Of a stretch of DNA of 64,000 nt, positions 17,567 through 61,877 are shown one piece after another. The stretch spans positions 124,001 to 188,000 of the forward strand of contig RXJR01000023.1 in the NCBI GenBank assembly GCA_003963305.1, in the 5' to 3' direction. The notes beneath the pieces were generated by a model. That model worked only from the letters and a program-made list of their open reading frames with translations. It was not told the origin of the DNA and ran no database searches. Each line of letters opens with the position of its first letter. Position 1 is the stretch's first letter. The translations under genes and the position numbers were made by a program. This DNA comes from Candidatus Melainabacteria bacterium (GTDB lineage Bacteria > Cyanobacteriota > Vampirovibrionia > Obscuribacterales > Obscuribacteraceae).

Positions 17567-17620
17567 TAACAACAAATCTTGACCCGCATAGAATCCTTGC
17601 AAACGTACAAGGAAAACTAT

Positions 17621-18472: not shown

Positions 18473-18505
18473 CATTCAATAAAAGCAGACTAATCGGAGT
18501 TCAAA

Positions 18506-19666: not shown

Positions 19667-20330
19667 AGACACTAAAAAAGCAACTGCAGAATCCGCAGAA
19701 ACTACAGCCGCTACTGCCGGCGCAGAAGCTACTGCCAGCTCAGAAGCTGCCGCAACGGCAGAAAGTAAAGCCACTGGCGGTGCAGAGACTGCAGCAACCG
19801 CAGTTTTGTCCGAAAGCAGCAAAGACGAATGCGAATGTACCAAAAAGTGTGAGGGTTGCCCTTCCGCCGGACATGACGATGACGACGTGCCGCCGATGAC
19901 GAGAAGCGACTTCACGCGCACACTCTTCGCTCTGGTGGCATTGACCTGGGGCGGTCTGACCTCCTTTCCCATTTTCATGTACCTGAATCCACCCGCCAGC
20001 GACCAGGAAGAACACTCGAAGGTAACAAGCATCGAAGTTTGCAAAGTCGCCGATCTGCCGCCTGGAACCGGCAAGAATTTCCGCTTCGGATCATTCCCCG
20101 CCATCCTCATTTGCACAGAAGACAAACAACTGCACGCATTCAAAGCGATTTGCACCCACCTTGGTTGCACTGTGCAGTTCCGCGCGGATAAACAGAACGT
20201 CTACTGCGCCTGCCACGGAGGAGAATACGATGCTGCGACCGGAAAGAATATTGCCGGTCCGCCGCCCAAGCCTTTAACGGCACTAAAAGCCGAAGTCAAA
20301 GACGGCAAAATTATAGTTTCACTTGCGTAA
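19659..20330 (+). CDS. Rieske [2Fe-2S] protein of a cytochrome bc/b6f-type complex
   Basis: 223 residues. An unusual Ala/Thr/Glu-rich N-terminus (1-50) leads to a Cys cluster (ECECTKKCEGCPSAG) and an acidic run. One transmembrane helix follows (about 85-108), then the Rieske domain with CTHLGC and CACHGG as cluster ligands. The canonical second motif is CPCHGS; the Ser that raises the redox potential is Gly here, which suggests a low-potential (menaquinone-type) centre. It accepts electrons from quinol at cytochrome b, whose gene follows 19 bp downstream. Confidence 0.92.
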   Translation: MTEDTKKATAESAETTAATAGAEATASSEAAATAESKATGGAETAATAVLSESSKDECECTKKCEGCPSAGHDDDDVPPMTRSDFTRTLFALVALTWGGLTSFPIFMYLNPPASDQEEHSKVTSIEVCKVADLPPGTGKNFRFGSFPAILICTEDKQLHAFKAICTHLGCTVQFRADKQNVYCACHGGEYDAATGKNIAGPPPKPLTALKAEVKDGKIIVSLA

Positions 20331-20349
20331 AGGATGGACGGTCAGAATC

Positions 20350-21441
20350 ATGGTTTACAATCCCATCGTCAGTTCCAAAAACAGCATCGAGCAGTTCTTG
20401 AAAGAGCGCTTGCCTGTTGCGGAGATGTCTGAACTGGCTGAAAAGAAAAAAGTTCCCATTCACAAGCACTCTATCTGGTACTACATGGGTGGTATCGCAG
20501 GCATTCTGCTCGGCATCCAGATAGTCACAGGCATCCTCTTGATGGTTTACTACGTTCCTGAGCTGAATGCCGCTCATGCGAGCATTCTTAAAATCAACTC
20601 GCAAGTCACCTTTGGCTGGTTCATTCGCTCGCTTCATAGCTGGAGCGCCAATGCCATGATCTTTGTAGTGATCGTACATCTCTTCAGCACTTACTTTATG
20701 AAGGCATATCGAAAGCCGCGTGAAATCACCTGGTTTTCCGGTCTGGCACTGCTGGGACTTTGCCTCGCATTCGGTTTTACCGGATACCTGTTGCCGTGGG
20801 ATGACGTTTCATTCTTTGCCACCAAAATCGGTCTGGACGTAGCATCGAAAGTGCCGCTGATTGGCGATTTCCTCGCTCATGCTTTGCGCGGCGGTGACAC
20901 AGTTTCGCAAAACACCATTTCAAGGTTTTTCATGATTCACGTGGCGGTGCTGCCGGCAATTTTGCTTGTTGCAATGGGCGCGCATCTTCTCATGGTGCAG
21001 TTCCATGGCATCTCAGAACCCGACTTCTTCAAGAAGCTGCCAGATGCCAAAAAGACTTACGAGAAGTTTTTCCCGCAATTCTTCTATAAAGACATTCTGG
21101 TCTGGATTCTGGCTGTCAATGTCCTTTTCATCCTGACCATGTTGAGCCCATGGGGAATCGGTCCAGAAGCCGATCCATTCGCAGCCGCACCAATCGGCAT
21201 CAAACCCGAATGGTATTTCCTGGCGCCATTCCAATTCCTGAAGATGATACCGGCCATGATTGGACCAATCGAGGGAGAGCTAGCAGGAATAGCTGTGATG
21301 TCGTTGGTCGCTCTGGCGATGATCTTCGTCCCCTTCTACGACACAGGGGAGTCCAAAACTCGTTCTAACATTGCCACTGCTTTTGGTGCAGCAATTCTAA
21401 TTGGCGCAGTCGTCTTAACATTAATGGGAGCACTATCATGA
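20350..21441 (+). CDS. Cytochrome b, b6-type spacing, fused to subunit-IV-like part
   Basis: 363 residues. Helix B has SLHSW...VIVH with 13 residues between its two histidines. Helix D has MIHVAV...MGAH with 14 residues between, the cytochrome b6 signature (13 in bc1). The GYLLPWD quinol-site motif and PEWYFLAPF (the PEWY motif, normally in subunit IV) are both present, so b6 and IV are one chain. The cysteine that binds heme ci in plant/cyanobacterial b6 is replaced. The ATG at 20350 is chosen over an upstream TTG that overlaps the Rieske stop. It overlaps the next gene by ATGA. Confidence 0.93.
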   Translation: MVYNPIVSSKNSIEQFLKERLPVAEMSELAEKKKVPIHKHSIWYYMGGIAGILLGIQIVTGILLMVYYVPELNAAHASILKINSQVTFGWFIRSLHSWSANAMIFVVIVHLFSTYFMKAYRKPREITWFSGLALLGLCLAFGFTGYLLPWDDVSFFATKIGLDVASKVPLIGDFLAHALRGGDTVSQNTISRFFMIHVAVLPAILLVAMGAHLLMVQFHGISEPDFFKKLPDAKKTYEKFFPQFFYKDILVWILAVNVLFILTMLSPWGIGPEADPFAAAPIGIKPEWYFLAPFQFLKMIPAMIGPIEGELAGIAVMSLVALAMIFVPFYDTGESKTRSNIATAFGAAILIGAVVLTLMGALS

Positions 21442-22844
21442 ACTATCCGCTCTGGGTCGTACCAACCCTTGGTGGAACCTGGGTTATAGGAATTATCTCC
21501 ATTATTCACGTCTTCATCTCGCACTTCGCAGTGGGCGGTGGAATATTCCTGGCCGTGGCAGAGAACCTGGCTTACAAAAAACAAGATGACAAAATGTACG
21601 ACTTCTTGAAGCGACATTCGAGATTCTTCGTTCTCTTAACCACCGTAGCAGGGGCCGTAACTGGAGTCGGTATCTGGTTTTCAGTCAGCCTTGTCAGCCC
21701 GGACGGACTGGCGTCATTGATCCAAAGTTTCACGCTGGCTTGGGCGGAAGAGTATCTGTTCTTCGTTGCTGAGATTGCCACAGCAATTGCGTACTACTAC
21801 ACCTGGGACAAGATCACCAAGAAACAACACCTGCTTCTAGCCAACCTTTATGCAGTGTTTTCAGTCTTCACGCTCGTCATCATCAATGGCATTTTGACAT
21901 TCATGCTCACGCCAAGCCGCTGGCTGGAAACTCACAACTGGCTTGACGGGGTATTCAACGCAACTTACTGGCCATCGCTGGCAGTGAGACTCCTGATCAT
22001 GCTTGCAATCGCCGGAATGTACGCGCTGGTAACATCTTCGAGAATCGAAGAAACAAGATTTCGTGTGTTCATGGTGCGTTATTGCGCCAAATGGCTGTTG
22101 CCTGTGTTCTTCCTCGGTCCGATCTGCACCATCTGGTTCCTCACTCAGGTACCCCAATCTACTCTCACCACAATCTTCACCGGCATTCAAAACTCCGGTG
22201 TGGGCAACTTCTCGATTCTGGCACGGGCGCTTTATACCAGCCTAGTCCTTTCAGGAACGATTCTTCTCTTTGCATTCTTTGGACCGTACCTCAATCCGAA
22301 GGGATTTACGTTTCGCATCGCACTGCTGTTCATGATTTGTGGACTGGCTGCAACCGGAACAACTGAGTGGATGCGCGAGATGTTGCGAAAGCCATATGTG
22401 ATTTATGGCTACATGTACTCAAACGGCATCCATAAAGATCAAATCGCTGATCTGCAGAAAGCCGGATTTCTCTCCCAGGGTGTCTGGGCGCATGCGCTGA
22501 CTGAAGGCAATGCCGATGACGTCAAAAAAGGCGAAATGATTTTCCGCTATCAGTGTATGGCATGCCACACAGAAACAGGCTACCGGAGCATGCGTAAGCT
22601 GCTTGGTTCGCGTGATGAAGAAGCGATCTGCAATTTCTTGCAAATCCTGAAAGAAACAGACAAAACAAAAAACAACTACGCCAATATTATGCCACCGCTA
22701 GCAGTGACAGAACCGGAGCTGAAATATCTGGCAAAATATCTCGCCACCATCAATGACAATGGGAAGCTCGAAACGGCACACAAGTTTAACTCCAAACCTG
22801 TGCTCGTACAGAGCACAGCCAAACAGGGCGACAACTTGCACTGA
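21438..22844 (+). CDS. CydA-like membrane subunit fused to a C-terminal cytochrome c domain, paralogue 2
   Basis: 468 residues. About nine transmembrane helices (1-345) are of CydA-like type, with histidines in helix 1 (IIHVFISHF). A C-terminal c-type heme domain follows (about 360-455) with CMACH. The start overlaps the cytochrome b stop. The heme c could serve as the missing cytochrome c1/f of the complex and hand electrons to the bd-like module. Whether O2 is reduced is unknown. No CydB is present; the paralogue at 18506 may take that place. Last gene of the operon, followed by a strong hairpin. Confidence 0.75.
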   Translation: MNYPLWVVPTLGGTWVIGIISIIHVFISHFAVGGGIFLAVAENLAYKKQDDKMYDFLKRHSRFFVLLTTVAGAVTGVGIWFSVSLVSPDGLASLIQSFTLAWAEEYLFFVAEIATAIAYYYTWDKITKKQHLLLANLYAVFSVFTLVIINGILTFMLTPSRWLETHNWLDGVFNATYWPSLAVRLLIMLAIAGMYALVTSSRIEETRFRVFMVRYCAKWLLPVFFLGPICTIWFLTQVPQSTLTTIFTGIQNSGVGNFSILARALYTSLVLSGTILLFAFFGPYLNPKGFTFRIALLFMICGLAATGTTEWMREMLRKPYVIYGYMYSNGIHKDQIADLQKAGFLSQGVWAHALTEGNADDVKKGEMIFRYQCMACHTETGYRSMRKLLGSRDEEAICNFLQILKETDKTKNNYANIMPPLAVTEPELKYLAKYLATINDNGKLETAHKFNSKPVLVQSTAKQGDNLH

Positions 22845-45923: not shown

Positions 45924-46244
45924 ATGACAGAAAAACTAGTTGCCTTCAAAGCGGAATTCTTCAAAGCTCTATCCAATCCCCTGCGGATTCGCATTTTAAA
46001 CGAATTGAGAGACGCAGAGTTAACAGTTTCTGAACTGAGAGACCGTCTCAGTGTCGGATTGCCAAATCTTTCGCAACAACTCTCGGTGTTGCGTTCAAAG
46101 AATCTTGTAATTGCCAGAAAACAGGGCAACAACATTTATTACTCATGCAGCGATTCCAATATATTTTATCTGCTTGATGTCGCCAAAAAGATCTTCAACA
46201 ACCACCTTATCGATTTGCAGAAAACACTTAAGGACATGAGCTAG
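45924..46244 (+). CDS. ArsR-family winged-helix regulator
   Basis: 106 residues. The helix-turn-helix KALSNPLRIRILNELR and LSVGLPNLSQQLSVLRSKNLV, and the wing VIARKQGNNIYYS, are clear. The metal-sensing alpha-3 motif ELCVCDL is ELTVSELRD here, without cysteines, so it senses something else, perhaps redox through no obvious thiol. Divergent from the complex-I-like operon and convergent with the stress-protein gene at 46241 (4-bp overlap). Confidence 0.85.
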   Translation: MTEKLVAFKAEFFKALSNPLRIRILNELRDAELTVSELRDRLSVGLPNLSQQLSVLRSKNLVIARKQGNNIYYSCSDSNIFYLLDVAKKIFNNHLIDLQKTLKDMS

Positions 46245-47152
46245 ACAATCACGTGCATCTTCGCCTTTTTCATCGAGTAATGTTTGACAATTTCAACCGA
46301 ACATTCGGCATGCGATGAAACCGCATCAGCAACACTTCCGAACACAATATCCTTATATGTACGCTGGGAGTGACTGCCCAGGACAATCAATCCCGCTTCG
46401 AACGCTTGAGCCGCATTGATTATTTGTTCACGCGCATCGCCGTACACTATTTCATAGCAAGCACAGTTGTCGCCAAACTCTGAATTCAGACGCGCCACAT
46501 GATTTCGCAACGCTTCTTCCACACCGGCTTTCAATGATTTCTCTTCCTTCAGGAGCGTCTCTCCAGAGTTATGCTTCGACAGAACAGCTCCATGTTCATT
46601 TTTTAGCGCCGTAACACACTTAAATCTGACGCCATCAGGCCAGGAAGCCTTCAAAACATGTTCTATTACGTACTCAGTCTGTTCCGATCGGGCGGGCGAT
46701 TCGTCTAGAGCGATCACTACATTTTTCGGCGATCGGGCTTGATGTCCATTCTTAACAATGCGAACAGGACACGCTGCATTCAGGGCAACAGCACGCGATG
46801 TGCTGCCCCACAAAAATCTCGTCAACGCGGATCGTCCATGCGAACCAATAACAATCAAATCGGCTTTAAATGCTGCTGCAGTATCGATGATTACTTGATC
46901 AGGATAACCAGCTAACGACTCTGCGGAGACCTTGCAATAGGGAAGATGCTGCAAAATTGTAGCTGCCACAGATCGCACATGGGCTTGCGCTTGTTCAGCA
47001 GCCTCTGCCGCATGCACAGCCAGGAACGGTTCAAAAAGCTCAACGACTGTCAGCACCTTGATTTCATCGTTGCGTCCATAACGCATTGCTATCAGCGCAT
47101 CTGCGCTTGCTTGAGAATGCGGTGACAGGTCGGCGGCAAATAGGATCCTCAT
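46241..47152 (-). CDS. Tandem universal stress protein (two UspA domains)
   Basis: 303 residues from the ATG at 47152 (GGAG upstream). Domain 1 carries the nucleotide loop GSHGRSALTRFLWGSTS and domain 2 GSHSQRTYKDIVFGSVA, so both should bind ATP. First of six Usp genes in the island. It lies 25 bp downstream of another Usp gene. Confidence 0.92.
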   Translation of the reverse strand: MRILFAADLSPHSQASADALIAMRYGRNDEIKVLTVVELFEPFLAVHAAEAAEQAQAHVRSVAATILQHLPYCKVSAESLAGYPDQVIIDTAAAFKADLIVIGSHGRSALTRFLWGSTSRAVALNAACPVRIVKNGHQARSPKNVVIALDESPARSEQTEYVIEHVLKASWPDGVRFKCVTALKNEHGAVLSKHNSGETLLKEEKSLKAGVEEALRNHVARLNSEFGDNCACYEIVYGDAREQIINAAQAFEAGLIVLGSHSQRTYKDIVFGSVADAVSSHAECSVEIVKHYSMKKAKMHVIV

Positions 47153-47176
47153 TAGATTCTCCGAAAGACTGATCAA

Positions 47177-47653
47177 TTACTTCGAAACATTCGCGGCTTC
47201 AGCAACAGTTTCAGCTGCTGCGTTTTTGCTCTTCTTCAATCTGACAATTTGCACGGAGCAAGTGCTATTTTGCGGAATGGATTGAGCAATCTTTCCAAAG
47301 AAGCGATTAGGCGAATTGCCATGCGCACCGATCAAAATGCGATCAGGCATCCACTCAGCAGCGCTGTAGATTATCTCCAGGTGCGGTTCTCCGCATCGAA
47401 CTTCAGCATAGACCATAGATTGAGGGCAAGATTCGGAAATTTGCTGCCTTGCCTTCATTACCAGATCATTGGCAAACTTTTTCCTCTTTTCCAATTGTTT
47501 CGCAGTCTCGGCAGCAGCTTCTGCTTCGGAACTCAAGGAGCCAACCACAGTCAGAATCTTGATCTGTGTATCAAGCGGCCATTCTGTCGTCGCCACTTCA
47601 TTAATGATCTGATTTGCAAACTCTGTCTGGTCAATTGCGACTATTACTTTCAT
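47177..47653 (-). CDS. Universal stress protein, single domain
   Basis: 158 residues from the ATG at 47653, which has AAGGTG upstream; the longer frame to 47713 is less likely. The loop GAHGNSPNRFFGKIAQS is a somewhat altered ATP site. It forms an operon with the tandem Usp downstream. Confidence 0.88.
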   Translation of the reverse strand: MKVIVAIDQTEFANQIINEVATTEWPLDTQIKILTVVGSLSSEAEAAAETAKQLEKRKKFANDLVMKARQQISESCPQSMVYAEVRCGEPHLEIIYSAAEWMPDRILIGAHGNSPNRFFGKIAQSIPQNSTCSVQIVRLKKSKNAAAETVAEAANVSK

Positions 47654-47740
47654 TCCTGCACCTTGCTCCTGTCTGACTACATCCAACAAATCATAACGGC
47701 ACCAGCATGACACTAAAATGCAGCAGGCACCACGGGCATC

Positions 47741-48135: not shown

Positions 48136-48151
48136 TCATCCCAAAAGATGA
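48136..48151. promoter_or_regulatory. Island palindrome, site A
   Basis: TCATCCCAAAAGATGA differs from the perfect site at 51277-51292 at two positions. It lies between the small membrane protein gene (minus) and the Xre gene (plus). Confidence 0.55.
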
Positions 48152-48331
48152 TACTTTCGAAGCCGATCCGGCTAATCCTTTTGATTGATCTGGTATGAGT
48201 CTTGAATGATTTAGCATGAGTCGATGGAGCGATGTTTTGACGCAGAATCTGCACCATAATAGGCATCATAGTGAAGAGCAGAGAATCGCAAAATAATCAG
48301 AATCCACTCAAAATTGGAATAGTTATCAACC

Positions 48332-48673: not shown

Positions 48674-51184
48674 TCACCGAAGGCTCCCCCTGGCATAGAA
48701 TCTGGTGCTGACTACGGCAACTATAGCCAGATATATAACAGCGATAATTCCAAGCATGATGAAGAATGAGAGCGGAAGCGCTGTAAATTGAAGCAGCGCT
48801 CCAAGCCTCGTCTGCGTCAGGAGGCAAGCCACTATTAGAGTGGCGACGCTGGCAATCGCAAGCGGAGCGCTCGGGGTACTCAGCCAGAACTTCCGCCTCG
48901 TACGAATGACGAAGATGACCAGTATTTGTGTCGCTAACGATTCGATAAACCAGCCTGAACGGAAGAGGGTTTGATCCGCTTTTAAAACTGCAAGCAGCAA
49001 AAAGAAAGTAATGAAGTCGAATATCGAACTGATTGGACCAACACTGAGCATAAACTTCTGGATGCTCGACATGCTCTCGCGACAAGGTTTTGCCAGTAAC
49101 TCCTCATCCACATTATCGGTCGGCAGAGCCAGTTCAGAAAGATCGTACAGGAGATTGTTCAGCAAAATTTGAAAAGGAAGCAGCGGCAAGAAAGGCAAAA
49201 TCAAACTTGCTGCGGCCATGCTGACCATATTTCCAAAGTTGGAACTTGTCGCCATCATTATGTATTTGTGCACATTGGAAAAGGCTCGCCGTCCTTCGCG
49301 AATACCAGCGTGCAACACGCGCAGGTCGTGCTCCAACAAAACCAGGTCGGCAGCTTGTTTCGCCACATCAACGGCACTGTCGACCGAAACTCCGACATCA
49401 GCTGCGTGCAACGATGGCGCATCGTTAATTCCATCGCCCAAAAATCCAACAATCTTGTCCCGTCCACGCAAAAGGATAATAATGCGATTCTTTTGAGATG
49501 GGTTGACACGGCAAAACAAATTCACCTGGTCGATCTTCAAGCTCAGGCTGGCATCATCCAGAGCGTCAAGGTCTGCGCCCGTAAGACTGCCTGTAACTGT
49601 AAACTGCAATTCATTGCAAACGTAGCGCGCCACCAATTCATGATCGCCGGAAAGGATTTTTACATCAACTCCATCGTCTTTCAAAGCACGAAGTGCTGCC
49701 GAAGCTGACTGTTTAGGTGGGTCCAGAAAAGCCGCGAAACCCAGAAATGTAAGTTTCTCTTCGTCGGCAACTGTCAGTCCAGACAATCGCTCCGAATTTA
49801 CCCGACAAGCGACAGCAAGAATATGAAATCCACTGGACGCCAATTCAGAGAATAGATCATTGATACGAGTCCGATATTCAGATATCGGATACAAACGACC
49901 ACCTACTTTGCAGTCCGAACAGACAGAGACGACTTCTTCAACAGCACCTTTGACGCACAGAAACTGGCGATCGTTCTGCTCTAGTAAGACAGACACACGC
50001 CTTCTCTCGAAATCGAACGGCACTTCATCGATTTTGTGGTACAGGGCTTTTTCACCGCGGTCCTGAAACGCACGCATAATTGCATCATCAAGCGGGCTCT
50101 TAATGCCTGTCTCATTGGCACTGTTCAAGTACGCGAAGCGGAGCACCTCATCACACGACTTCCCATCCAGATCGATATGTTTAAACAGCTCAATCTTGCC
50201 TTCAGTCAATGTTCCAGTTTTGTCGGTGCACAGAACGTCCATAGACCCGAGGTCTTGTACAGCAGACAGGCGTTTGACAATCACCTTTTCTTTCGCCATC
50301 AACAAGGCGCCACGCGCCAGAGTGACAGTGACAATCATGGGCAACAACTCGGGCGTCAAACCAACAGCCAGAGCAACGCTGAACAACAACGATTCCAACA
50401 ATGGGCGGTGAAACGAGATGTTGATGACAAATGCAAAGACTACAAGCACTATGGTGAACCGCAATATCAAATTGCCGAAACTTTGCAATTCCCTGTCAAA
50501 TGAAGTTGCAGAGCGCTGCTGCGCCAGGCTGAGACTGAGTTCACCAAATACAGTGCGAAGCCCGGTCGCAGAAATCAACAGTTTTGCTGTTCCGCTGCTG
50601 ACAGAGCTTCCTGCGAAGCACTTAGTTTCACTGCTCAAATCAGACGACTGAGCGGCATTTTCCAGATTCGACGAAACTGAGACAACCTTTTCCACCGGAT
50701 AGGACTCGCCTGAAAGGCTCGATTGATCGACGAATAAGTGTTTAGCCTCAAGAAGTACGCCGTCGGCGGGAATCAGATCTCCGGCTGACAGCAAGACAAC
50801 GTCACCGGGCACGATACTGTCGCTAGGTACACGAACTTCATGCCCATCTCGAAGCACACGAGCACTCAAGGCCACACTTGCCGATAACCTTTCCACGGCA
50901 TCGTCAGCTTTCCTCTGTTGGCAGATGTCCATTGCGATGCTAATCGAAACGACCATCAGGATTATGGCAAAGCTGCCGGTCTCGCCCGTCAAAGCCGAAA
51001 TGAAGCCGGCTGCCAGCAAGATACAGACAAGCGGATTTCGCAATCTATCTAGTATGGATTTGAGCCAGTGGGACTTTGCCTTCTTGCCAAAGCTGTTTTT
51101 GCCCCAGCGTTCAAGAAGTGCTGCGGCTTCGCCGCTGGTTAGCCCGACGTTAGATTGATTGGCGAGGGCTTCGGTGAAGGACAT
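48674..51184 (-). CDS. mgtA: MgtA/MgtB-type magnesium-translocating P-type ATPase
   Basis: 836 residues. The phosphorylation motif is CTDKTGTLTEG, the hinge GDGINDAPSL, and the type IIIB membrane block NFGNMVSMAAASLILPFLP with LLYDLSELALPTDNVDEE. It imports Mg2+ using ATP. P-type ATPases of this kind recur in anaerobic-stress islands next to Usp genes. The perfect palindrome (site B) is about 95-110 bp upstream of the start. Confidence 0.93.
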   Translation of the reverse strand: MSFTEALANQSNVGLTSGEAAALLERWGKNSFGKKAKSHWLKSILDRLRNPLVCILLAAGFISALTGETGSFAIILMVVSISIAMDICQQRKADDAVERLSASVALSARVLRDGHEVRVPSDSIVPGDVVLLSAGDLIPADGVLLEAKHLFVDQSSLSGESYPVEKVVSVSSNLENAAQSSDLSSETKCFAGSSVSSGTAKLLISATGLRTVFGELSLSLAQQRSATSFDRELQSFGNLILRFTIVLVVFAFVINISFHRPLLESLLFSVALAVGLTPELLPMIVTVTLARGALLMAKEKVIVKRLSAVQDLGSMDVLCTDKTGTLTEGKIELFKHIDLDGKSCDEVLRFAYLNSANETGIKSPLDDAIMRAFQDRGEKALYHKIDEVPFDFERRRVSVLLEQNDRQFLCVKGAVEEVVSVCSDCKVGGRLYPISEYRTRINDLFSELASSGFHILAVACRVNSERLSGLTVADEEKLTFLGFAAFLDPPKQSASAALRALKDDGVDVKILSGDHELVARYVCNELQFTVTGSLTGADLDALDDASLSLKIDQVNLFCRVNPSQKNRIIILLRGRDKIVGFLGDGINDAPSLHAADVGVSVDSAVDVAKQAADLVLLEHDLRVLHAGIREGRRAFSNVHKYIMMATSSNFGNMVSMAAASLILPFLPLLPFQILLNNLLYDLSELALPTDNVDEELLAKPCRESMSSIQKFMLSVGPISSIFDFITFFLLLAVLKADQTLFRSGWFIESLATQILVIFVIRTRRKFWLSTPSAPLAIASVATLIVACLLTQTRLGALLQFTALPLSFFIMLGIIAVIYLAIVAVVSTRFYARGSLR

Positions 51185-51275: not shown

Positions 51276-51293
51276 CTCATCCCAAGGGATGAG
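51276..51293. promoter_or_regulatory. Island palindrome, site B (perfect)
   Basis: CTCATCCCAAGGGATGAG is a perfect 18-bp palindrome in the 292-bp divergent gap between the MgtA-type gene and the resolvase-like gene. It is the best-conserved copy and the reference for the other sites. Confidence 0.6.
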
Positions 51294-51476: not shown

Positions 51477-52016
51477 ATGGGTACCGTTGATAACGATAAT
51501 AACGATCGAAGTCTGATGGCGACAATACTCGCAAACAGCAAAAGCTACCGTCCGCATGGTCGAGTGCAGTCCGCAAATTGTATCTGCAGCACTTCTGGTT
51601 CGCTTGCCGATGTGTTCTTCGGCAAACCGAAGAGTGAATCTCTCATCGCATACATAAGGTCCCCGAATCACGATCACATCGACAATCACTGGCGAGAAAT
51701 TGCTAACTATTGCCAAAAACATTCATACCAGGTCGTCCATCTCTTCACCGATATAGGCGATCGCCCCTCGTTTGGTCTACAGTCTGCGTTTGATGCGCTG
51801 GAAGTCGTAGATGGGCTTATATCATGCGATATGACCATGTTCATCAAGGACAATGGGGACCGAGTTAGAGAACTCCGGCCTTTCATTCATCATTTCTTCT
51901 GCCTCTACGAAAAGCACTTGATCACCATATTCGATGGCATCGATACAAGTACATCTTTTGGGCAGGAAAATGCCATCGAACTAATGTGCCAAACCAAACA
52001 AGGCTTCGATACATAA
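51477..52016 (+). CDS. Resolvase-fold protein without DNA-binding domain (probably domesticated)
   Basis: 179 residues. After a 50-residue N-terminal extension, the segment SLIAYIRSPNHDHID, then LFTDIGDRPSFGLQSAFDAL, DRVRELRPFIHHFF and DGIDTSTSFGQENAIELM follows the catalytic domain of serine recombinases (YARVS..., FTD..., DR..R, DGIST/DGIDTST). The nucleophile position of YxRVS reads YIRSP, so the Ser is shifted or lost. No C-terminal helix-turn-helix. GGAGGGG precedes the ATG. Recombination activity is unlikely; a regulatory role in the stress island is a guess. Confidence 0.6.
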   Translation: MGTVDNDNNDRSLMATILANSKSYRPHGRVQSANCICSTSGSLADVFFGKPKSESLIAYIRSPNHDHIDNHWREIANYCQKHSYQVVHLFTDIGDRPSFGLQSAFDALEVVDGLISCDMTMFIKDNGDRVRELRPFIHHFFCLYEKHLITIFDGIDTSTSFGQENAIELMCQTKQGFDT

Positions 52017-52065: not shown

Positions 52066-52479
52066 ATGCTCAAATTCCCCAACGCACGACTGCTAATTCA
52101 CAACCTCATCGCTGAGCGAAAGCTAAGCGGAGAAGATGCAATTGCAGCAGGCGCATGCGAACTCGGATTAATGAGCCCGGTCGAAATTGAATCAGTTCGA
52201 GGGCAATCTGCAGCTCAGTCAGATATGTGCGGATGCTCACGAACAGCGAGACTAATCTTGAAGAAATACTTTGACAATAACGATACCGACGCGGCCGAAG
52301 CATTTCAAAAGAGCTGGGAGAGTCTTCAAGAACGCTCAAAAAAACGCCTGGGACCAGAGGCTATTCAGGCTACCGCAGAGAGTCACGATGCTGCTGCAAC
52401 GGATCAAAATAAATCCTGCTCTCAACATGCACCTATAATTTTTGACTACTTATTGCAAGAAGTAAATCGGCACTCTTGA
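52066..52479 (+). CDS. Conserved-looking protein of unknown function
   Basis: 137 residues, mainly helical, with a small Cys pair (MCGCSRTAR) and a C-terminal CSQHAP. No family recognised. It lies 49 bp after the resolvase-like gene on the same strand and is likely co-transcribed with it. It is convergent with the globin-coupled kinase gene. Confidence 0.55.
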   Translation: MLKFPNARLLIHNLIAERKLSGEDAIAAGACELGLMSPVEIESVRGQSAAQSDMCGCSRTARLILKKYFDNNDTDAAEAFQKSWESLQERSKKRLGPEAIQATAESHDAAATDQNKSCSQHAPIIFDYLLQEVNRHS

Positions 52480-52536: not shown

Positions 52537-54138
52537 TCACTGCGAGGGCAGTTCTACTGTAAATTGACTGCCCTTGCCAATCTGGCTTTCACACCAGATT
52601 TGACCGCCGTGCCCTTCAACAATCTTGCGGGAGAGATAGAGTCCCAACCCCGTACTGGCGTAGTAGCGCCCACTCGATCCCGCTTGCCAGAAGCGCTGAA
52701 AGAGCTTAGCCATATTTTCAGGTGGAATGCCTTTTCCGGTATCAGATACGGTGAGTGTGGTGACGTCGTCATTTTGAAAAAGTTCGACTTGTATTCTGCC
52801 ACCACCAGGGGTGAATTTGAGCGAGTTATCGATCAAGTTCTGAATCACTCTTCTGATTTCTTCCTTGTCACAGGGAATTTCTTTGATCCGGTCAGGAAGC
52901 ACAGTAATCAACTGAATCTTGCGTTCCTCTGCCAGTGGCATGACCTCAGTGACGAACTGTGTCACAATCGATGACAGATCGCAGGGCGTCATCCGCATCT
53001 CTTTGACGCCACTATCAAACCGATAGACATCGAGCAGCGTCTGCACCAATCCGTACAGGGTCGTATTACTCTGCAACAAAGTGGACAAAATCTCACGCTG
53101 CTCGGCATTTACTTCGCCAAAGTCGCCATCCAGCAGTAGCTTGACAGCTCGATTGGTTGCCGAAACCGGAGTTTTCAAGTCGTGCGTAAGCGTTGCCACG
53201 AAGTCTTCTCGCTGCTGTTGCAGTTGCACCCGATCGGTCGCATTAGCGAACATGGCAACCAGACCGGTTGTGGCGCCGCTTCCATCTTTGGTCGGCCAGA
53301 CTGCCCAATCCCAGTATGAAACTTCCAGCGTCTTCTCCGATGAAAGATTCAAAGCGTTTGCTGAAAAACGTGCTGGGGTGGCTGTTAAAAGAACATCTTC
53401 AAAGACCTTGCGCGGAACAAAGGGCGAAAGTTCAAAGAATGATTTACCGATTACTTCTCTGGTGCTTGCGCAAGACAAAAGCTTGGCAAACTCTTCATTG
53501 CATTCGAGACAGACGAAATGCTCGTCAAGGTTGACAATACCGATTGGAGCGCTTTCTAAAATACTCTTCGTGACGCGCTTCTCTGTTTCGAGCTCGCGAA
53601 TCGCATCGCGATGAATCAAGAGAGCAAACTCTTTAGACTTGATGTAGCTCTCGATCGCCAGGCTCATATCGAAAAAAATCAACCGCATCATCGATGCCAT
53701 GGTTTCACATTCGGTGCCGGGCTCACATTTCTCCAGCAGCCGGGGAAGTAGCCATGAGACAGCCTTGTTATAGGCGCCGATGTACCACTTCGGTTCAAGG
53801 TCGATGCGATGATGGGTCAAACCCACCTTTAGCCGATCAGCGACATAAGCTCGATCATGAGCACCATGAGCTAAACGCAGAAAATATTGCTTCTGAGCTT
53901 GCTTGGCGCGCTGTATTACATGCTCGTTCGGGAAAAAATCTCGGGTCTCTGGAAAACTCAAAAAATGTTCATACATAGCGTCCATGAGATCATCGACGCA
54001 ATTCTGCAAAAGAAGGTCGATTGCCTCCAGCTGGCCCGGTTCAATCTTTTCGAACTCAAGCCATTTTTGTCTGGTATCGATTTCCTGCTCGGTGAGCGGC
54101 TCTAGAAATTCCTGCTCTATTGCATCTTTTCGAGTCAT
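52537..54138 (-). CDS. Globin-coupled sensor histidine kinase with PAS domain
   Basis: 533 residues from the ATG at 54138, chosen for AAGGTGAGG just upstream. The protoglobin-type sensor spans about 20-175. VGLTHHRIDLEPKWYIGAYN is the HemAT-like F-helix block with His109 as likely heme ligand. A PAS domain (about 190-310), HisKA (LTHDLKTPVSATNRAV) and HATPase_c (NLIDNSLKFTPGGG, DTGKGIPPE, GLGLYLSRKI) follow. No membrane helix, so it is a soluble O2/NO/CO sensor. It diverges from the NarL-type regulator gene 102 bp away, its probable partner. Confidence 0.9.
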   Translation of the reverse strand: MTRKDAIEQEFLEPLTEQEIDTRQKWLEFEKIEPGQLEAIDLLLQNCVDDLMDAMYEHFLSFPETRDFFPNEHVIQRAKQAQKQYFLRLAHGAHDRAYVADRLKVGLTHHRIDLEPKWYIGAYNKAVSWLLPRLLEKCEPGTECETMASMMRLIFFDMSLAIESYIKSKEFALLIHRDAIRELETEKRVTKSILESAPIGIVNLDEHFVCLECNEEFAKLLSCASTREVIGKSFFELSPFVPRKVFEDVLLTATPARFSANALNLSSEKTLEVSYWDWAVWPTKDGSGATTGLVAMFANATDRVQLQQQREDFVATLTHDLKTPVSATNRAVKLLLDGDFGEVNAEQREILSTLLQSNTTLYGLVQTLLDVYRFDSGVKEMRMTPCDLSSIVTQFVTEVMPLAEERKIQLITVLPDRIKEIPCDKEEIRRVIQNLIDNSLKFTPGGGRIQVELFQNDDVTTLTVSDTGKGIPPENMAKLFQRFWQAGSSGRYYASTGLGLYLSRKIVEGHGGQIWCESQIGKGSQFTVELPSQ

Positions 54139-54240
54139 CAGCCTCACCTTGAAAACGTCGAACATCGATGCTCAACAAGCAAGCTCGTTCTACAAGCGTC
54201 AATGTCGAGGCAAAGTATATATAATTATCGAGAAGGAATC

Positions 54241-55137
54241 ATGATTTCGGATATAAGCGACAAATCGGTCGCAACTAAAAGCAAACTAAATCAAGCGAGT
54301 ACTTTGGAAATGAGTGTTGAAAAAGAAGCAAATGGACATCAGATCCGAATTTTACTCGTGGAAGACCACGCCCTGACACGGGTCGGAATCAAGACAGTCT
54401 TAAAACGTGAAGCCGATTTGCAAGTCGTTGGTGAGGCATCCAATGGTGAAGAAGCCGTCGAGCAAGCCGAACTCTTGAAGCCAGATGTCATCCTCATGGA
54501 TGTTGGCATGCCGATAATGGATGGAATCCAGGCGGCCAAGAAGATTGTCGAACACGGCAACGCCGCCAGAATTATTATGCTTACACAACATGATAACGAC
54601 CAGGACATCCTCGCTTCCTTTTCCGCCGGTGCCTCGGGATACTGTTTGAAAGATGTCGAAGAGTCTCGGCTGTTCATGGCGATCAGAACAGTCTTCGCGG
54701 GCGATGCCTGGCTGGATTCAGCAATCGCAGGCAAAGTATTGAAGCTTCAAAGACAGATCAACCAGGCCCAGCAGCAAAACGTTCAATCAGCTCAACCAAC
54801 AGAGTCTTCGGCGCACGAGTCGCCTGAGGAGCACGCCGAACACGGTACTCATCACGACAGAACAGATCATGAGGTTGTGCCTTCCTCAGATTTAGCTGCT
54901 CATTCGGGAGCGGGAAATCCGCAAAAGCTAGATCGTCCCTATGCCGAACCACTCTCACCCCGAGAATTGGAGGTGCTTGGTCTGATCGTCGAAGGAATGT
55001 CAAACCAGCAAATTTCAGACAAGTTGATAATCTCGCTGCCAACAACCAAAACACATGTCCGAAACATTTTGAACAAACTGGCGGTTGACGATAGAACTCA
55101 AGCGGCAGTGCACGCGATGCGGCGCGGTTTAGTTTAA
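54241..55137 (+). CDS. NarL/FixJ-family response regulator with long His-rich linker
   Basis: 298 residues from the ATG at 54241 (AAGGA upstream). The receiver domain spans about 35-155 with phospho-Asp in VILMDVGMPIMDG. The LuxR-type helix-turn-helix lies at the C-terminus (LSPRELEVLGLIVEGMSNQQ). The linker is unusually long and contains HESPEEHAEHGTHHDRTDHE, eight charged and histidine-rich turns that could bind metal. It is probably phosphorylated by the divergent globin-coupled kinase and is the best candidate to bind the island palindrome. Confidence 0.9.
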   Translation: MISDISDKSVATKSKLNQASTLEMSVEKEANGHQIRILLVEDHALTRVGIKTVLKREADLQVVGEASNGEEAVEQAELLKPDVILMDVGMPIMDGIQAAKKIVEHGNAARIIMLTQHDNDQDILASFSAGASGYCLKDVEESRLFMAIRTVFAGDAWLDSAIAGKVLKLQRQINQAQQQNVQSAQPTESSAHESPEEHAEHGTHHDRTDHEVVPSSDLAAHSGAGNPQKLDRPYAEPLSPRELEVLGLIVEGMSNQQISDKLIISLPTTKTHVRNILNKLAVDDRTQAAVHAMRRGLV

Positions 55138-57668: not shown

Positions 57669-57684
57669 TAGACCTAAAGGATGA
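57669..57684 (+). promoter_or_regulatory. Degenerate island palindrome, site D
   Basis: TAGACCTAAAGGATGA keeps the centre and right arm of the palindrome (11 of 16 matches to site B). It lies about 58-73 bp upstream of the cytochrome c start. Confidence 0.25.
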
Positions 57685-57741: not shown

Positions 57742-58203
57742 ATGCGAGCAAAATTTATAAAGGTTCACTCGTGGATGCAACTGATGAAAATCCCCGTGCT
57801 CTCCGTACTGTTTGTGCTTTCCAGCCTGGCGCTGCCCGCCGGTGCAGGGGATTCGCATGATGCAAAGTCAACCGATGGTCAAAAGAAGCATAAACAGAAC
57901 GAGCAGCAGCGAGTGCAGCAAAACAAAGCTCAATCAATAAAACGCGGAAAACAACTCTACTACGCGAATAACTGCCAGAGCTGCCATACGATTGGAAATC
58001 GTGGCGCAAAGTTCGGACCGGCGTTAGACAAATTAGGCAAACACGCGAGCGCACTAGAGATGTCTGAAGAGATTCATGGTGGCGCAGATGAACCCGAGAT
58101 GGATTTCAAAACGCGACATCTAACCAAAGATGAGCAGCGATCGATAATCGACTTTCTGCTTTCTGTTCAAGACAAAGCAACGAAACAAGCCGGCAGCCAC
58201 TGA
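57742..58203 (+). CDS. Exported monoheme c-type cytochrome
   Basis: 153 residues. A signal peptide (about 1-34) and a Lys/Gln-rich spacer precede a class I cytochrome c domain with CQSCH. Candidate axial Met lies in LEMSEEIHGG or EPEMDF. It is a probable periplasmic electron carrier. AGGAG precedes the ATG. It lies 34 bp upstream of a Usp gene, a likely operon. Confidence 0.88.
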   Translation: MRAKFIKVHSWMQLMKIPVLSVLFVLSSLALPAGAGDSHDAKSTDGQKKHKQNEQQRVQQNKAQSIKRGKQLYYANNCQSCHTIGNRGAKFGPALDKLGKHASALEMSEEIHGGADEPEMDFKTRHLTKDEQRSIIDFLLSVQDKATKQAGSH

Positions 58204-58237: not shown

Positions 58238-58744
58238 ATGAATGTACTTTTAGCTGTATCAGATCGCTTTTTCGGGGACGCACTGGTGAAGTTCGCACGC
58301 CACCACCATTGGGAAGAGAATGCCCACTTCAAGGTGATCAAAGCAGTTTTGCCTGCGGAGCATCAACCTGGGGCAACCAATGAAGACCGCGAAATTTCGT
58401 TTCAAGAAGAAATGAAACTAGCCGATAATTTGCTGAAAAAACTTTGCGCGATGCTCGGCAAAAACAAAGAAGGCTGCGATATTTCGCCTGAAGTAATAAT
58501 CGGAAGCCCGGCAAAAGTAATCATCGAATACGCCACCAATTGGCCGGCTGATATCATCATTCTCGGAGCCCATGAGCAGAGCAACTTTGAAAAGCTGATA
58601 CTCGGAAGCGTCTCGAAATACATATCAGAACATGCTCCTTGCTCATTCACCATCGTGCGTATCGCCAATGACGAGGCGCTTGATTTGAGCCTGGAAGAAG
58701 ATGAAGTGCTTGAAGAGCTGGGCATACCGTTAGCCTCATCTTGA
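58238..58744 (+). CDS. Universal stress protein, single domain, acidic tail
   Basis: 168 residues. The loop is GAHEQSNFEKLILGSVS. The C-terminal tail is acidic (SLEEDEVLEELG). The leader CCAACCAAGG before the ATG is also found before the hydrolase gene at 61209. Confidence 0.88.
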   Translation: MNVLLAVSDRFFGDALVKFARHHHWEENAHFKVIKAVLPAEHQPGATNEDREISFQEEMKLADNLLKKLCAMLGKNKEGCDISPEVIIGSPAKVIIEYATNWPADIIILGAHEQSNFEKLILGSVSKYISEHAPCSFTIVRIANDEALDLSLEEDEVLEELGIPLASS

Positions 58745-59123: not shown

Positions 59124-59642
59124 CTATTCTTTGCTCCAGCGAACATGAACACTTGGTTTTTCCGGCAACGATGTGACATCTAATTTTCCACCGTATGCTT
59201 TCTCAATTGCTTTACCAATTCGTTTGGCAAGCCACATACTGGTGGTTTTGATTTCGATTTTAGAAGCTCCATCAATTCTACTCAAGATCCTCGATGCCGG
59301 ATTGTCTTGCCGGCACTCCGACTCGATGTTAGCGATGAGATTATTCATTTCCTGGAGAGCAGCAGGTTCGAACTCGCCGGTGATATCGACCGTTCCTTCC
59401 CACACATTTTTCTCTACCATAGAACAGCCAGGGCAAAGGGTTTCGACCAGATGCTCCGGTAATCCTTTCTTTAGAGACTCGTCTTCGGTGTACCAGTGCT
59501 TGTCATGATGAACCGCCCGGCATTCCGTGCAAATCATATATCCTTTTTGTGCTTTCGCATTTTTGACAGTTGTAGAATCAATGTGTTGACTTGCTTCATA
59601 TCGTCCCTGCTTGAACGATATGTTGGTTGGTTTCTTATTCAT
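59124..59642 (-). CDS. BCAM0308-family zinc-ribbon protein
   Basis: 172 residues. CTEC (MICTECRAVHH) and CPGC (LCPGCSMVEKNVWEGTV) form a zinc ribbon, followed by a helical domain and a basic C-terminus, like the BCAM0308 family found in low-oxygen loci of proteobacteria. Molecular role unknown; the fold recalls RNA/ribosome-associated NMD3-like zinc proteins. AAGGAG precedes the ATG. Confidence 0.75.
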   Translation of the reverse strand: MNKKPTNISFKQGRYEASQHIDSTTVKNAKAQKGYMICTECRAVHHDKHWYTEDESLKKGLPEHLVETLCPGCSMVEKNVWEGTVDITGEFEPAALQEMNNLIANIESECRQDNPASRILSRIDGASKIEIKTTSMWLAKRIGKAIEKAYGGKLDVTSLPEKPSVHVRWSKE

Positions 59643-59664: not shown

Positions 59665-60990
59665 CTACAGCGCTTTCGCCTGAAGTTTCGAACCGGTAAT
59701 TTCTAAAGCTCTTGAAAGATCCCCAATAATGTCGTTAACGTCCTCCAGTCCGATGGAGAGTCTGATACCACCGGGTGCCAGCGCGGCTACGTCCTTAATA
59801 GCGTCGGGCAACGCTGAGTGAGTCATCGAATATGGTTCTTCTATGAGGGTACGCGTTTGACCCAGGCTGACAGCGAGCGTAATGCTTTGCGAGGAGCGGG
59901 CAATTGCATCGATGAAGTGCGCGGCTGCAGCCTGTGCTTCGCCGGAACTTCCCTTTAGCACGAAATAAATCATTGAGCCGGGCGCAAATCTTCCGTCGTA
60001 ACTAATCATCTGGCGGTGCGCAAGATCTGATTGCGCAAATGAATCAAGTCCAGGGTAAGAAACGTGATCGATGAGTGGATGATTTTCCAAAAATTGTGCA
60101 ATCGCTATTGCCGAACGCTGTTCCTGTTCGAGCCTTGTTGCAAGTGTCGGCAAGCCATAAACAAGCAGCGGCCAGGCAGAGCGCGCCGCTAATGTGCCAC
60201 CAAAATCCTTCCTGTACAAAAGCAATGATCGATGATACCGACCGGCACCGATGACGACACCGCCCATATCAGTGCCGAAGCCACCAATATTCTTGGTCAA
60301 GCTGTGAACAACAAAATCTGCGCCGTGGCTGATTGGTCTCTGACAAAATGGCGTAGCAAAGGTATTGTCTACAATCAATACAATTCTTTCGTCTTCTTTT
60401 CGATGCTTATTAGCCTCGTCAACGCAAGATTTGATAGCCCGGATATCGAGTAATTCAAGCGTGGGGTTAACAGGTGTCTCAAAGTAAACCACGCGAGTCT
60501 TACTGGTGATGGCACCGGCAAGCGCCTCCATATCACGCAGATCAATAAATTTCGTCGACACGCCCTGCCTGATCATCCAATTGCTCAGCAAGCTGTAAGT
60601 GCAGCCATAGAGAAGTTGGTGAGCGATGATCTCGTCGCCGGAAGTCACGTTGATGCATAATGCTGCGCTTACTGCAGCCATGCCGGTCGCGAAACAGACT
60701 GCAATGTCGGCATCCTCAGCAAGTGCCAGCTTCTCCTCAAGGATTCCACGGGTTGGTTCGTCCAGCCGTTCATATACATAGATTGGAGCTTCACTTCCGT
60801 TCTCATCAGAAGCGAACTGTGCGAAACCCTGCATGCCTCTCTGCACCGAGTCCAGCCGATAGGCGCAAGAAACGTTCATCGGAGGAACGAGCGGGTGATT
60901 ATATTCCCAGTGCCGACTGTCATAATCGTTATGGATCATGCTAGTGCGTATCGAATAGTCTTTATGTCGCTTCTGACCTTTTCTGGACAT
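59665..60990 (-). CDS. Cystathionine gamma-synthase/methionine gamma-lyase-like PLP enzyme
   Basis: 441 residues from the ATG at 60990, which has GGGAGA upstream; the frame is open further but lacks a good start. The trans-sulfuration PLP family is clear from PIYVYERLDEPTR, CFATGMAAVSAAL, VDNTFATPF and the Schiff-base Lys in HSLTKNIGGFG. It may act on cystathionine, homocysteine or methionine; the exact reaction is not resolved. It is next to the BCAM0308-like gene (22 bp). Confidence 0.9.
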   Translation of the reverse strand: MSRKGQKRHKDYSIRTSMIHNDYDSRHWEYNHPLVPPMNVSCAYRLDSVQRGMQGFAQFASDENGSEAPIYVYERLDEPTRGILEEKLALAEDADIAVCFATGMAAVSAALCINVTSGDEIIAHQLLYGCTYSLLSNWMIRQGVSTKFIDLRDMEALAGAITSKTRVVYFETPVNPTLELLDIRAIKSCVDEANKHRKEDERIVLIVDNTFATPFCQRPISHGADFVVHSLTKNIGGFGTDMGGVVIGAGRYHRSLLLYRKDFGGTLAARSAWPLLVYGLPTLATRLEQEQRSAIAIAQFLENHPLIDHVSYPGLDSFAQSDLAHRQMISYDGRFAPGSMIYFVLKGSSGEAQAAAAHFIDAIARSSQSITLAVSLGQTRTLIEEPYSMTHSALPDAIKDVAALAPGGIRLSIGLEDVNDIIGDLSRALEITGSKLQAKAL

Positions 60991-61099
60991 TACGAATTCT
61001 CCCGGTGCGTCTATAACGTCCCTATTATTCTTCAAAATCGACGAACAAAGCGCATCGTCCCACTGAACTTTTCGACTGCCTGATTGGCTGATTTTGTTG

Positions 61100-61115
61100 T
61101 CATCCAAATGGATTA
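61100..61115. promoter_or_regulatory. Island palindrome, site C
   Basis: TCATCCAAATGGATTA has the same 5-6-5 arrangement as sites A and B with one arm mismatch. It lies in the divergent gap between the PLP-enzyme gene (110 bp) and the hydrolase gene (94 bp). Confidence 0.4.
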
Positions 61116-61208
61116 GTATCAGTTCGAAAAAATCAGCCGCAATACTCATGCCACCCGAGTGCATTGCGCAGAAAATGAATATTGATGCTCCAACCAAGGG
61201 TTACGACT

Positions 61209-61877
61209 ATGCAGTCACATTCGAAAACCTCAGCTGTAAAACAGGCTGTATCCATTCCCGCGTCCGGAAGTGTATTGTCGGGCGATCTCGCCGTTCCACC
61301 AAACGCGCTCGGGTTGGTGTTGTTCGCGCACGGAAGCGGCAGCAGCCGACACAGCCCAAGAAATAAAGCTGTAGCGGCAAAGTTGAACGAGATGCACCTG
61401 GGTACTTTACTGATGGACCTGCTCACAGCCGAAGAAGAAGTAATTGACGAACAAACTTCTGCGTTACGCTTCGATATACCAATGCTGACAGATCGGCTGG
61501 TCGAAATCGTTGACTGGCTGATTGTTAATCCGGCGACAGAAGGCATGAAGCTGGGAATCTTTGGCGCCAGTACTGGTGCAGCTTCAGCGATCGGAGCAGC
61601 TGCCAGACGCGGCAAATGGGTAAACGCTGTCGTCTCACGTGGGGGACGACCGGACCTCGCGAAAGATTACCTGAGCGAACTAGAAGCACCGACGCTTCTG
61701 ATTGTCGGCGGACAAGATTATACGGTGATTGAACTCAACAAACTGGCTTTTGCTGGAATGACTTGTGTCAAGAAATTATCGATCATCGAAGGCGCCACAC
61801 ATCTGTTCAGCGAACCTGGAGCGTTAGAGCAGGTATCTGTCGAAACTGGTGAGTGGTTCCAGAAGTATCTGCGATAG
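61209..61877 (+). CDS. Dienelactone-hydrolase-like alpha/beta hydrolase
   Basis: 222 residues from the ATG at 61209 (AAGGG upstream). It has LFAHGSGSSRHS (oxyanion region), a nucleophile elbow altered to GIFGASTGAAS, an acid in VGGQDYTV and a His in EGATHLF. Members of this type often sit beside phosphoribosyltransferase or Usp genes in stress islands; substrate unknown. It is divergent from the PLP enzyme. Confidence 0.8.
   Translation: MQSHSKTSAVKQAVSIPASGSVLSGDLAVPPNALGLVLFAHGSGSSRHSPRNKAVAAKLNEMHLGTLLMDLLTAEEEVIDEQTSALRFDIPMLTDRLVEIVDWLIVNPATEGMKLGIFGASTGAASAIGAAARRGKWVNAVVSRGGRPDLAKDYLSELEAPTLLIVGGQDYTVIELNKLAFAGMTCVKKLSIIEGATHLFSEPGALEQVSVETGEWFQKYLR

Follow-up and report, generated by a model that had tools for sequence, protein, structure and literature searches.

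The 18-bp palindrome at 51276-51293 of the window, by which we mean the whole 64,000-nucleotide stretch of DNA analysed, is, as judged by comparison of related genomes, a real and conserved operator. We consider it probable that this operator belongs to the two-component system encoded in the same gene island, which is composed of a globin kinase and a NarL-type regulator, and it would then mediate DosR-like induction at low O2 or by NO.

Results

Copies of the palindrome in the window

A perfect 18-bp palindrome had been claimed at 51276-51293 in a preliminary description of this DNA, and CTCATCCCAAGGGATGAG is found there with zero mismatches; the further copies that it placed at 48136, 61100, 17551, and 57669 are also all present. 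The first three of these differ from TCATCCN4GGATGA by 1 mismatch each, and the last by 3. The sites, for which no strand is given because of their symmetry, are as follows:

51276..51293: operator 1, CTCATCCCAAGGGATGAG, matrix score 23.8 bits, between a Mg-type P-ATPase gene (-) and ORF 51477 (+)
48136..48151: operator 2, 1 mismatch, 20.0 bits, upstream of a 114-aa ORF-Usp-Usp run (47741-46241, -)
48173..48188: weak second copy, 37 bp from operator 2, 13.6 bits
17551..17566: operator 3, 22.8 bits, upstream of the gene run 17579-22844
61100..61115: operator 4, 16.4 bits, between the genes of a PLP enzyme (59665-61197, -) and a hydrolase (61182-61877, +)
57669..57684: weak operator 5, 3 mismatches, 12.4 bits, between the genes of FtsH (-) and cytochrome c (+)
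54488..54503: core-like match with at most 1 mismatch in the regulator coding sequence, not counted as an operator

Operator 1 occupies the gap upstream of the P-ATPase gene 48674-51184 (-), and an HTH_3 gene (48332, +) lies on the other side of operator 2. The match at 54488, which is the fifth place in the window with 1 mismatch or none, is probably driven by the protein sequence because the corresponding part of the regulator gene scores in three other genomes as well (G010, G018, and G035). All copies had been placed in non-coding promoter DNA, but that at 61100 falls within the first codons of the longest reading of ORF 59665-61197 and would be a promoter element only if the true start of that ORF lies further in. 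The layout, formerly given as 5-6-5, is better described as a NarL-like 7-2-7: the consensus WTCATCC-YWWR-GGATGAW contains a 16-bp core that can be read as two inverted heptamers 2 bp apart, TCATCCY-WW-RGGATGA. When 3 mismatches to TCATCCN4GGATGA are allowed, the window holds 31 matches against 27.5 expected, which is no excess and makes this threshold useless; the signal lies in the cores with at most 1 mismatch and in their clustering.

Enrichment in the source genome and its relatives

The source genome (7.48 Mb) has 31 places that match the core TCATCCN4GGATGA with 1 mismatch or none, 13 of which are packed into 81 kb of the window's 222-kb contig, C23 (C23:141551-222313, partly to the right of the window; binomial P ~5e-18), and the stretch C23:1-120000 contains zero such cores. 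Eleven of the 13 clustered cores are intergenic, the exceptions being the 54488 match in the regulator gene and the site at 61100, and a second gene call places C23:199459, one of these eleven, in a small ORF. As for the 18 cores outside C23, 12 loci were inspected, where 4 proved intergenic or at a gene start and 8 coding.

For the comparison with relatives, 33 regions from 31 genomes (source included) were chosen solely by the presence of the globin kinase gene, with the motif not looked at. Each region comprises up to 20 kb on either side of the kinase gene, with a total of 991,900 bp, and the control consists of stretches of the same genomes together with C23:1-120000 (467,884 bp in total, one stretch being 1 kb long). 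Gene starts were taken from a custom ORF and codon-usage caller. The islands contain 13 perfect and 33 one-mismatch cores (46 in 992 kb), in contrast with 0 and 1 in the control (1 in 468 kb), although, the genomes being related MAGs, such counts do not represent independent events. Among 59 permuted palindromes with the same half-site letters, the highest number of island matches was 6, against the 46 of the real core. When exact 6-bp inverted repeats with spacers of 0-12 were counted in a seed-free manner, TCATCC-4-GGATGA ranked first, with 13 copies in 9 genomes and none in the control. All but one of the 13 perfect island cores are intergenic, though the DNA is 86% coding, and the 33 one-mismatch cores include 23 intergenic ones and 3 near a start.

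A symmetric 18-bp matrix, which unlike the inverted-repeat ranking was seeded from the palindrome at 51276, was retrained leaving out the tested genome and applied with a site threshold of 12 bits. In the intergenic part of the islands (206 kb) it found 82 sites, as opposed to ~1 in the 105 kb of the control, with at least one site in 28 of the 31 genomes, whereas 200 column-permuted matrices gave a mean of 1.9 and a maximum of 17. Twelve held-out named loci (199,669 bp), of which three (L206, L207, and L208) nearly duplicate one another and one (L217) shares ~10% with the training regions, yielded 11 cores, including 4 perfect ones, and 25 matrix sites, all but one of which (24) are intergenic. 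The locus L233, which equals the G009 contig (overlap 1.00), was left out of this held-out count, and L171-L174, the choice of which was partly guided by the motif, were left out of all enrichment counts. L233 (JAJPJO010000433.1) is from a MAG titled Proteobacteria and carries an Obscuribacterales kinase region that overlaps the G009 region in full, and so is probably mislabelled. When one perfect site was taken per family genome and the kinase was ignored, 21 of 26 sites were intergenic. Where clear cores were missing, a de novo search turned up no other palindrome beyond hints such as TCATAC variants (G024). Compared as the preliminary description had suggested, the motif is concentrated in non-coding upstream DNA, not in coding or control DNA.

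The globin kinase and the NarL-type regulator

The heme-globin kinase and NarL-type regulator that had been recognized at the center of the island were both confirmed by their domains:

52537..54165, -: sensor kinase with protoglobin, PAS, HisKA, and HATPase domains (Pfam)
53632..54090, -: protoglobin domain of the kinase, residues 26-178, matching globin 2w31, HemAT 1or4, and protoglobin 3zom
54241..55137, +: NarL-type response regulator with receiver and GerE HTH domains (Pfam; the longest reading starts at 54202), the proposed binder
54937..55134, +: DNA-binding domain of the regulator, with a copy at least 81% identical in each of the 28 family genomes that have the pair and in none of the 8 that lack it

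In the kinase, the protoglobin domain is joined to a kinase core, as in globin-coupled histidine kinases, and His118, Tyr65, and His328, the last of which is in the HisKA motif, are invariant among 28 aligned homologues. His118 aligns with the haem histidine of HemAT, and Tyr65 is also aligned with HemAT, where these residues act as the proximal haem histidine and the distal tyrosine, respectively. By analogy, we infer that the kinase binds haem and reads O2 or NO. The autophosphorylation of another kinase of this kind, NmpU, requires haem, according to passages of PMC11841059.

The matches of the regulator include NarL 1a04 and DevR 3c3w. Most of the kinase relatives found in named records come from MAGs of Candidatus Obscuribacterales/Melainabacteria, which places the organism in this non-photosynthetic branch of the Cyanobacteriota. 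The kinase and regulator genes are neighbors in all 33 regions of the 31 genomes (source included; contig ends truncate the copies in G004 and G017), whereas the other island regulators compared are seldom common to the regions (HTH_3 in 2/33 and ArsR in 4/33). The gap between the kinase and regulator genes contains a matrix site of at least 12 bits in 0 of 33 cases, the best score being 10.8, and therefore gives no sign of autoregulation.

In a covariation scan, core matches were compared with matches to a reversed-pattern control in each genome. The 28 family genomes with the pair contain 242 matches against 24 control matches, a tenfold enrichment, while the 8 family genomes that do not have the pair are hardly enriched (18 against 12) and the other families of the class show no excess (32 against 46). 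An HTH at least 81% identical to that of the regulator exists in exactly the 28 genomes with the pair and in 0 of the 8 others. Because both the motif enrichment and the close HTH go with the pair, the regulator at 54241 is the likely binder of the palindrome. Some genomes with the pair have few core matches (G018, 0; G014, 1; G012, G015, and G029, 2 each), but in a weak set of 12 such genomes the lower-scoring sites continue to exceed chance expectation (15 against 0.5). The exception is G001, which has 5 matches and 0 controls in spite of having no pair, and whose nearest HTH is 72% identical. In f7, a different family of the class in which the nearest HTH has 74% identity, a site with 1 mismatch (G053:C1:448124) lies near kinase and regulator matches and a perfect intergenic site is found at G043:C17:3094 (L026); the f7 counts are not above control, and these sites are only a lead.

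Position of the sites in promoters

When the 101 non-coding sites were oriented towards the downstream gene, a good -10 box started +30 to +33 from the palindrome center at 12 of them against 2.6 expected, and no other interval did better. The -10 box was taken to start at -12, and the palindrome center would thus be near -42.5, which supports an activator position, i.e., the class II place, as predicted from the sequence. One such box belongs to operator 3:

17589..17594, +: predicted -10 box TAGAAT of operator 3, first base +31 from the operator center (the center then being at -42.5)

If this box is used, the translation start should lie downstream of the first TTG of the ORF. Operator 1 has just a weak -10 sequence (TAGGAA, 0.7 bits) at the class II place. 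NarL activation sites span -40 to -49 at napF and -38 to -47 at yeaR, as cited in part of PMC4549865, and a palindrome center at ~-42.5 is the NarL position at yeaR and nearly that at napF.

Genes behind the sites

A gene start lies within 500 bp of 83 of the 101 non-coding sites, which are located at a median of 97 bp upstream. Pfam was run on 109 of the 110 downstream genes, one that crosses a locus border being left out of the family scan, and on 109 random other island genes. Usp proteins are encoded by 25/109 downstream genes and by 7/109 of the random ones (P 0.0005), and P-ATPases by 8 and at most 3, respectively, a difference that is not significant alone (P 0.11); with this reservation about the P-ATPases, the enrichment upstream of Usp, P-ATPase, and respiratory genes that had been anticipated was borne out. 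The other downstream families are PEP synthase (3), cytochrome c (3), HypF (2), and acetyl-CoA hydrolase/transferase (2), together with hydrogenase genes, Hsp20, and a Rieske/cytochrome b run; among the random genes it is TPR proteins and response regulators that are abundant. For the large downstream genes, NCBIfam identified PEP synthases, HypF, phosphoketolase, protoporphyrinogen oxidase, and a tryptophanase-like enzyme. The genes next to the sites in the window include the following:

48674..51184, -: P-ATPase of the Mg-translocating type (TIGR01524 above cut-off), predicted target of operator 1
51477..52016, +: 179-aa protein with no Pfam match; homologue in 11/33 regions (source included)
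52066..52479, +: 137-aa protein with no Pfam match; homologue in 14/33 kinase regions
47177..47713, -: Usp downstream of operator 2 (domain search)
46241..47176, -: double Usp downstream of operator 2 (domain search)
57742..58203, +: cytochrome c (domain search), followed by a Usp (58238-58744); possible targets of operator 5

At homologues of the P-ATPase type found behind operator 1, no site was present in G008, G023, and G024; a second P-ATPase type has a site in 6 other regions. The gene of the 137-aa protein, which is preceded by a site in 6 of its 11 called homologues, is a candidate core member of the regulon. Operator 3 precedes a run (17579-22844) in the order of desaturase, 386-aa protein, Rieske, cytochrome b, and cytochrome bd-I-like genes, and homologues of the 386-aa gene (63-70% identity) in G001, G009, and G027 have a perfect site upstream.

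To the right of the window the island runs on for ~34 kb, where it contains further Usp genes, Hsp20, the second P-ATPase, a NiFe hydrogenase set, and nitric oxide reductase (NOR). The best-scoring site of the contig (C23:219025, 28.1 bits) precedes the NOR gene, but NOR was rejected as a conserved target since a site exists at 1/28 NOR loci, in the source genome alone (L330-L331, truncated or unrelated, being left out of the count). Outside the islands, a source-genome site (C1:450047) lies at a rubredoxin-ScdA-hemerythrin gene, a type associated with iron-sulphur repair under NO. Such iron-sulphur-repair-like genes have a site within 450 bp upstream at 9/27 loci, where ~0.1 would be expected (L360-L362, truncated or unrelated, are left out), and 6/6 of the close full-length homologues (52-100% identity) have one. 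From these counts, the link to iron-sulphur repair is conserved, whereas that to the reductase is private to the source genome. A perfect operator was also observed between an NnrS-type gene and a beta-eliminating lyase gene in another genome (L036, G010:C26:3350); NnrS points to NO.

Discussion

In the mechanism we propose, the haem globin of the kinase would sense the loss of O2 and/or the presence of NO, and the kinase would phosphorylate the regulator, a phosphotransfer suggested by the conserved, divergent arrangement of the two genes and by the invariant His and Asp. Two output domains, presumably those of this regulator, would bind TCATCCY-WW-RGGATGA, and at many promoters the dimer, centered ~42.5 bp upstream of the start, might replace the -35 region and aid RNA polymerase. 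The expected outcome would be the induction of Usp, P-ATPases, Hsp20, hydrogenase and its maturation genes, and cytochromes, along with an alternative Rieske/cytochrome b chain, PEP synthase, phosphoketolase, and the iron-sulphur-repair-like hemerythrin protein. Such a regulon might help the cells to survive and to keep their redox balance when oxygen is scarce or nitrosative stress is present.

The analogy with DosR that had been drawn in the preliminary description is correct in part, because architecture and gene content agree, while the sensor domain, the outer half-sites, and the absence of a site from the kinase-regulator gap do not. In the DosR/DevR (DosS/DosT) system of Mycobacterium tuberculosis, a NarL/LuxR-type regulator works with a haem sensor kinase, as is proposed for the Obscuribacterales island, and the DosR regulon and the island are both rich in Usp; the island also contains P-ATPase, Hsp20, and phosphoribosyltransferase/erythromycin-esterase-type genes, the latter type being DosR targets. 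DosS is, however, a GAF-haem kinase, and the island kinase is composed of protoglobin, PAS, HisKA, and HATPase domains, with no GAF by Pfam. DosR, whose host belongs to a different phylum, has an operator at its own promoter, in contrast with 0 of 33 kinase-regulator gaps having a site at 12 bits. By sensor, operator, and autoregulation, therefore, the island system is not a member of the DosR system, yet it would be DosR-like in its working. Another Usp-rich low-oxygen gene island is the low-oxygen-activated (lxa) locus of Burkholderia cenocepacia. As to the operators themselves, the DosR consensus in the part of PMC2275270 that describes it, TTSGGGACTWWAGTCCCSAA, has the same central CTWWAG as the palindrome and no further agreement, the outer half-sites being GGGA in the former and TCATC in the latter.

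Two other systems are comparable with that of the island. OsdKR of Streptomyces coelicolor, whose host is one of the Actinobacteria, also uses a 16-nt palindromic operator, AGGGCCGATCGGCCCT, which differs in sequence; its Usp genes are clustered near the regulator as in the island, and most of the sites listed in the relevant part of PMC5069765 are similarly placed, ~50-150 bp upstream, although the OsdR promoter has its own site, unlike that of the island regulator. NmpRSTU of Myxococcus xanthus, with AfGcHK of Anaeromyxobacter, likewise includes a globin-coupled histidine kinase and controls genes for Usp, P-type ATPase, hemerythrin, and oxygen use, as described in portions of PMC11841059. 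The Nmp system, on the same source, employs a phosphorelay to an NtrC-like sigma54 activator with the site GCGCA-N5-TGCGC, whereas the island regulator consists of only a receiver and GerE, and the Nmp genes carry their own sites, unlike the island kinase-regulator gap. In its form, the island regulator, a receiver plus GerE HTH protein encoded beside an operator cluster whose heptamers are 2 bp apart and span 16 bp in total, conforms to the NarL/FixJ type. The 7-2-7 operators of Escherichia coli NarL have the same layout of two inverted heptamers 2 bp apart, and the engineered NarL site given in an excerpt of PMC4549865, TACCCCTAAAGGGGTA, has the central CCTAAAGG in common with the best sites here, while the outer bases differ. 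The 7-2-7 layout and the shared CCTAAAGG and CTWWAG thus favor a NarL-type dimer. The partner of NarL itself is the nitrate kinase NarX, which has no globin.

There is some chance, albeit a small one, that the palindrome serves a paralogous NarL-type regulator, or several of them, and that the globin pair is a mere neighbor or one input. With up to 19 HTH relatives per genome, binding by a paralogue is conceivable as well. Perfect operators lie beside a further NarL-type gene (HTH 78-83% identical) at G024:C1:1694302 (L048), G033:C285:10933, and G006:C61:26336, the HTH identity in the last two being 78-81%, which possibly indicates a cascade of regulators or a shared operator; the regulator concerned in G024 (52.5% identical to the 54241 protein) begins 95 bp behind its site; G001 has the sites with the pair absent. 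This explanation has to contend with the tracking of the globin pair by both motif enrichment and the close HTH, and with the clustering of the sites round the pair in most of the 31 genomes. At G024:C1:1694302, a sigma-70-family factor gene is located on the opposite side of the operator.

The binding of a CRP/FNR-type regulator is improbable. CRP/FNR sites have a half-site spacing like that of TCATCC-N4-GGATGA, the targets are of a redox type, and a strong HTH_Crp_2 protein exists in nearly all family genomes, but genomes that show no enrichment of the motif (G020, G036, and G037) have the CRP-like gene just as the others do, no CRP-like gene was found among the Pfam-scanned island genes, and the central bases are conserved as YWWR, like those of NarL/DosR-type sites. 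Nor does the motif follow the CRP-like gene across genomes, as membership in a CRP/FNR regulon would require. Still less credible is an RNA-level or terminator-like inverted repeat, for which a perfect inverted repeat in intergenic DNA might be taken: the arms are just 6-7 bp long, the center is fixed at 4 bp of YWWR, the arm sequence itself is conserved rather than pairing alone, and the sites precede gene starts (by a median of 97 bp) and keep a fixed distance to -10 boxes. Chance or compositional palindromes, with which the 3-mismatch count in the window would agree since it equals expectation, can be dismissed given every control comparison, namely 46 against 1 cores, the first rank without a seed, and 82 against ~1 matrix sites, and given the intergenic position of 12/13 perfect cores.

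It seems slightly more plausible than the opposite that the non-photosynthetic Obscuribacterales have a low-O2/NO regulon of their own, convergent with that of DosR, which combines a globin-coupled HisKA kinase with a distinct TCATCC 7-2-7 operator in ~30 species-level genomes, and whose operator several paralogues may read. No description of the operator or of such a system in Obscuribacterales/Melainabacteria was found in searches of the open-access literature. An uncultured branch of Cyanobacteriota would thereby gain a regulatory code in the form of a binding matrix, a candidate binder, and a target list, and its behavior at low oxygen would become directly testable. The system would represent a further way of coupling haem sensing to a low-oxygen program rich in Usp, in addition to actinobacterial DosR and myxobacterial Nmp, and the promoters offer clues to the domain-less ORFs 51477 and 52066.

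Two proteins encoded in these regions deserve mention in their own right. A beta-CASP metallo-beta-lactamase protein is encoded behind sites in G028 and G008 (L130:1643-3040 (+) and C23:204261-205826), with the type VII CRISPR Cas14-like and archaeal aCPSF1 families as its best NCBIfam matches, both below their cut-offs, and an RNA-processing enzyme behind a stress operator would be unusual. In the window, a 172-aa protein (59124-59642, -) matches Pfam NMD3 above the cut-off (E 3.6e-8), a family better known from archaea and eukaryotes.
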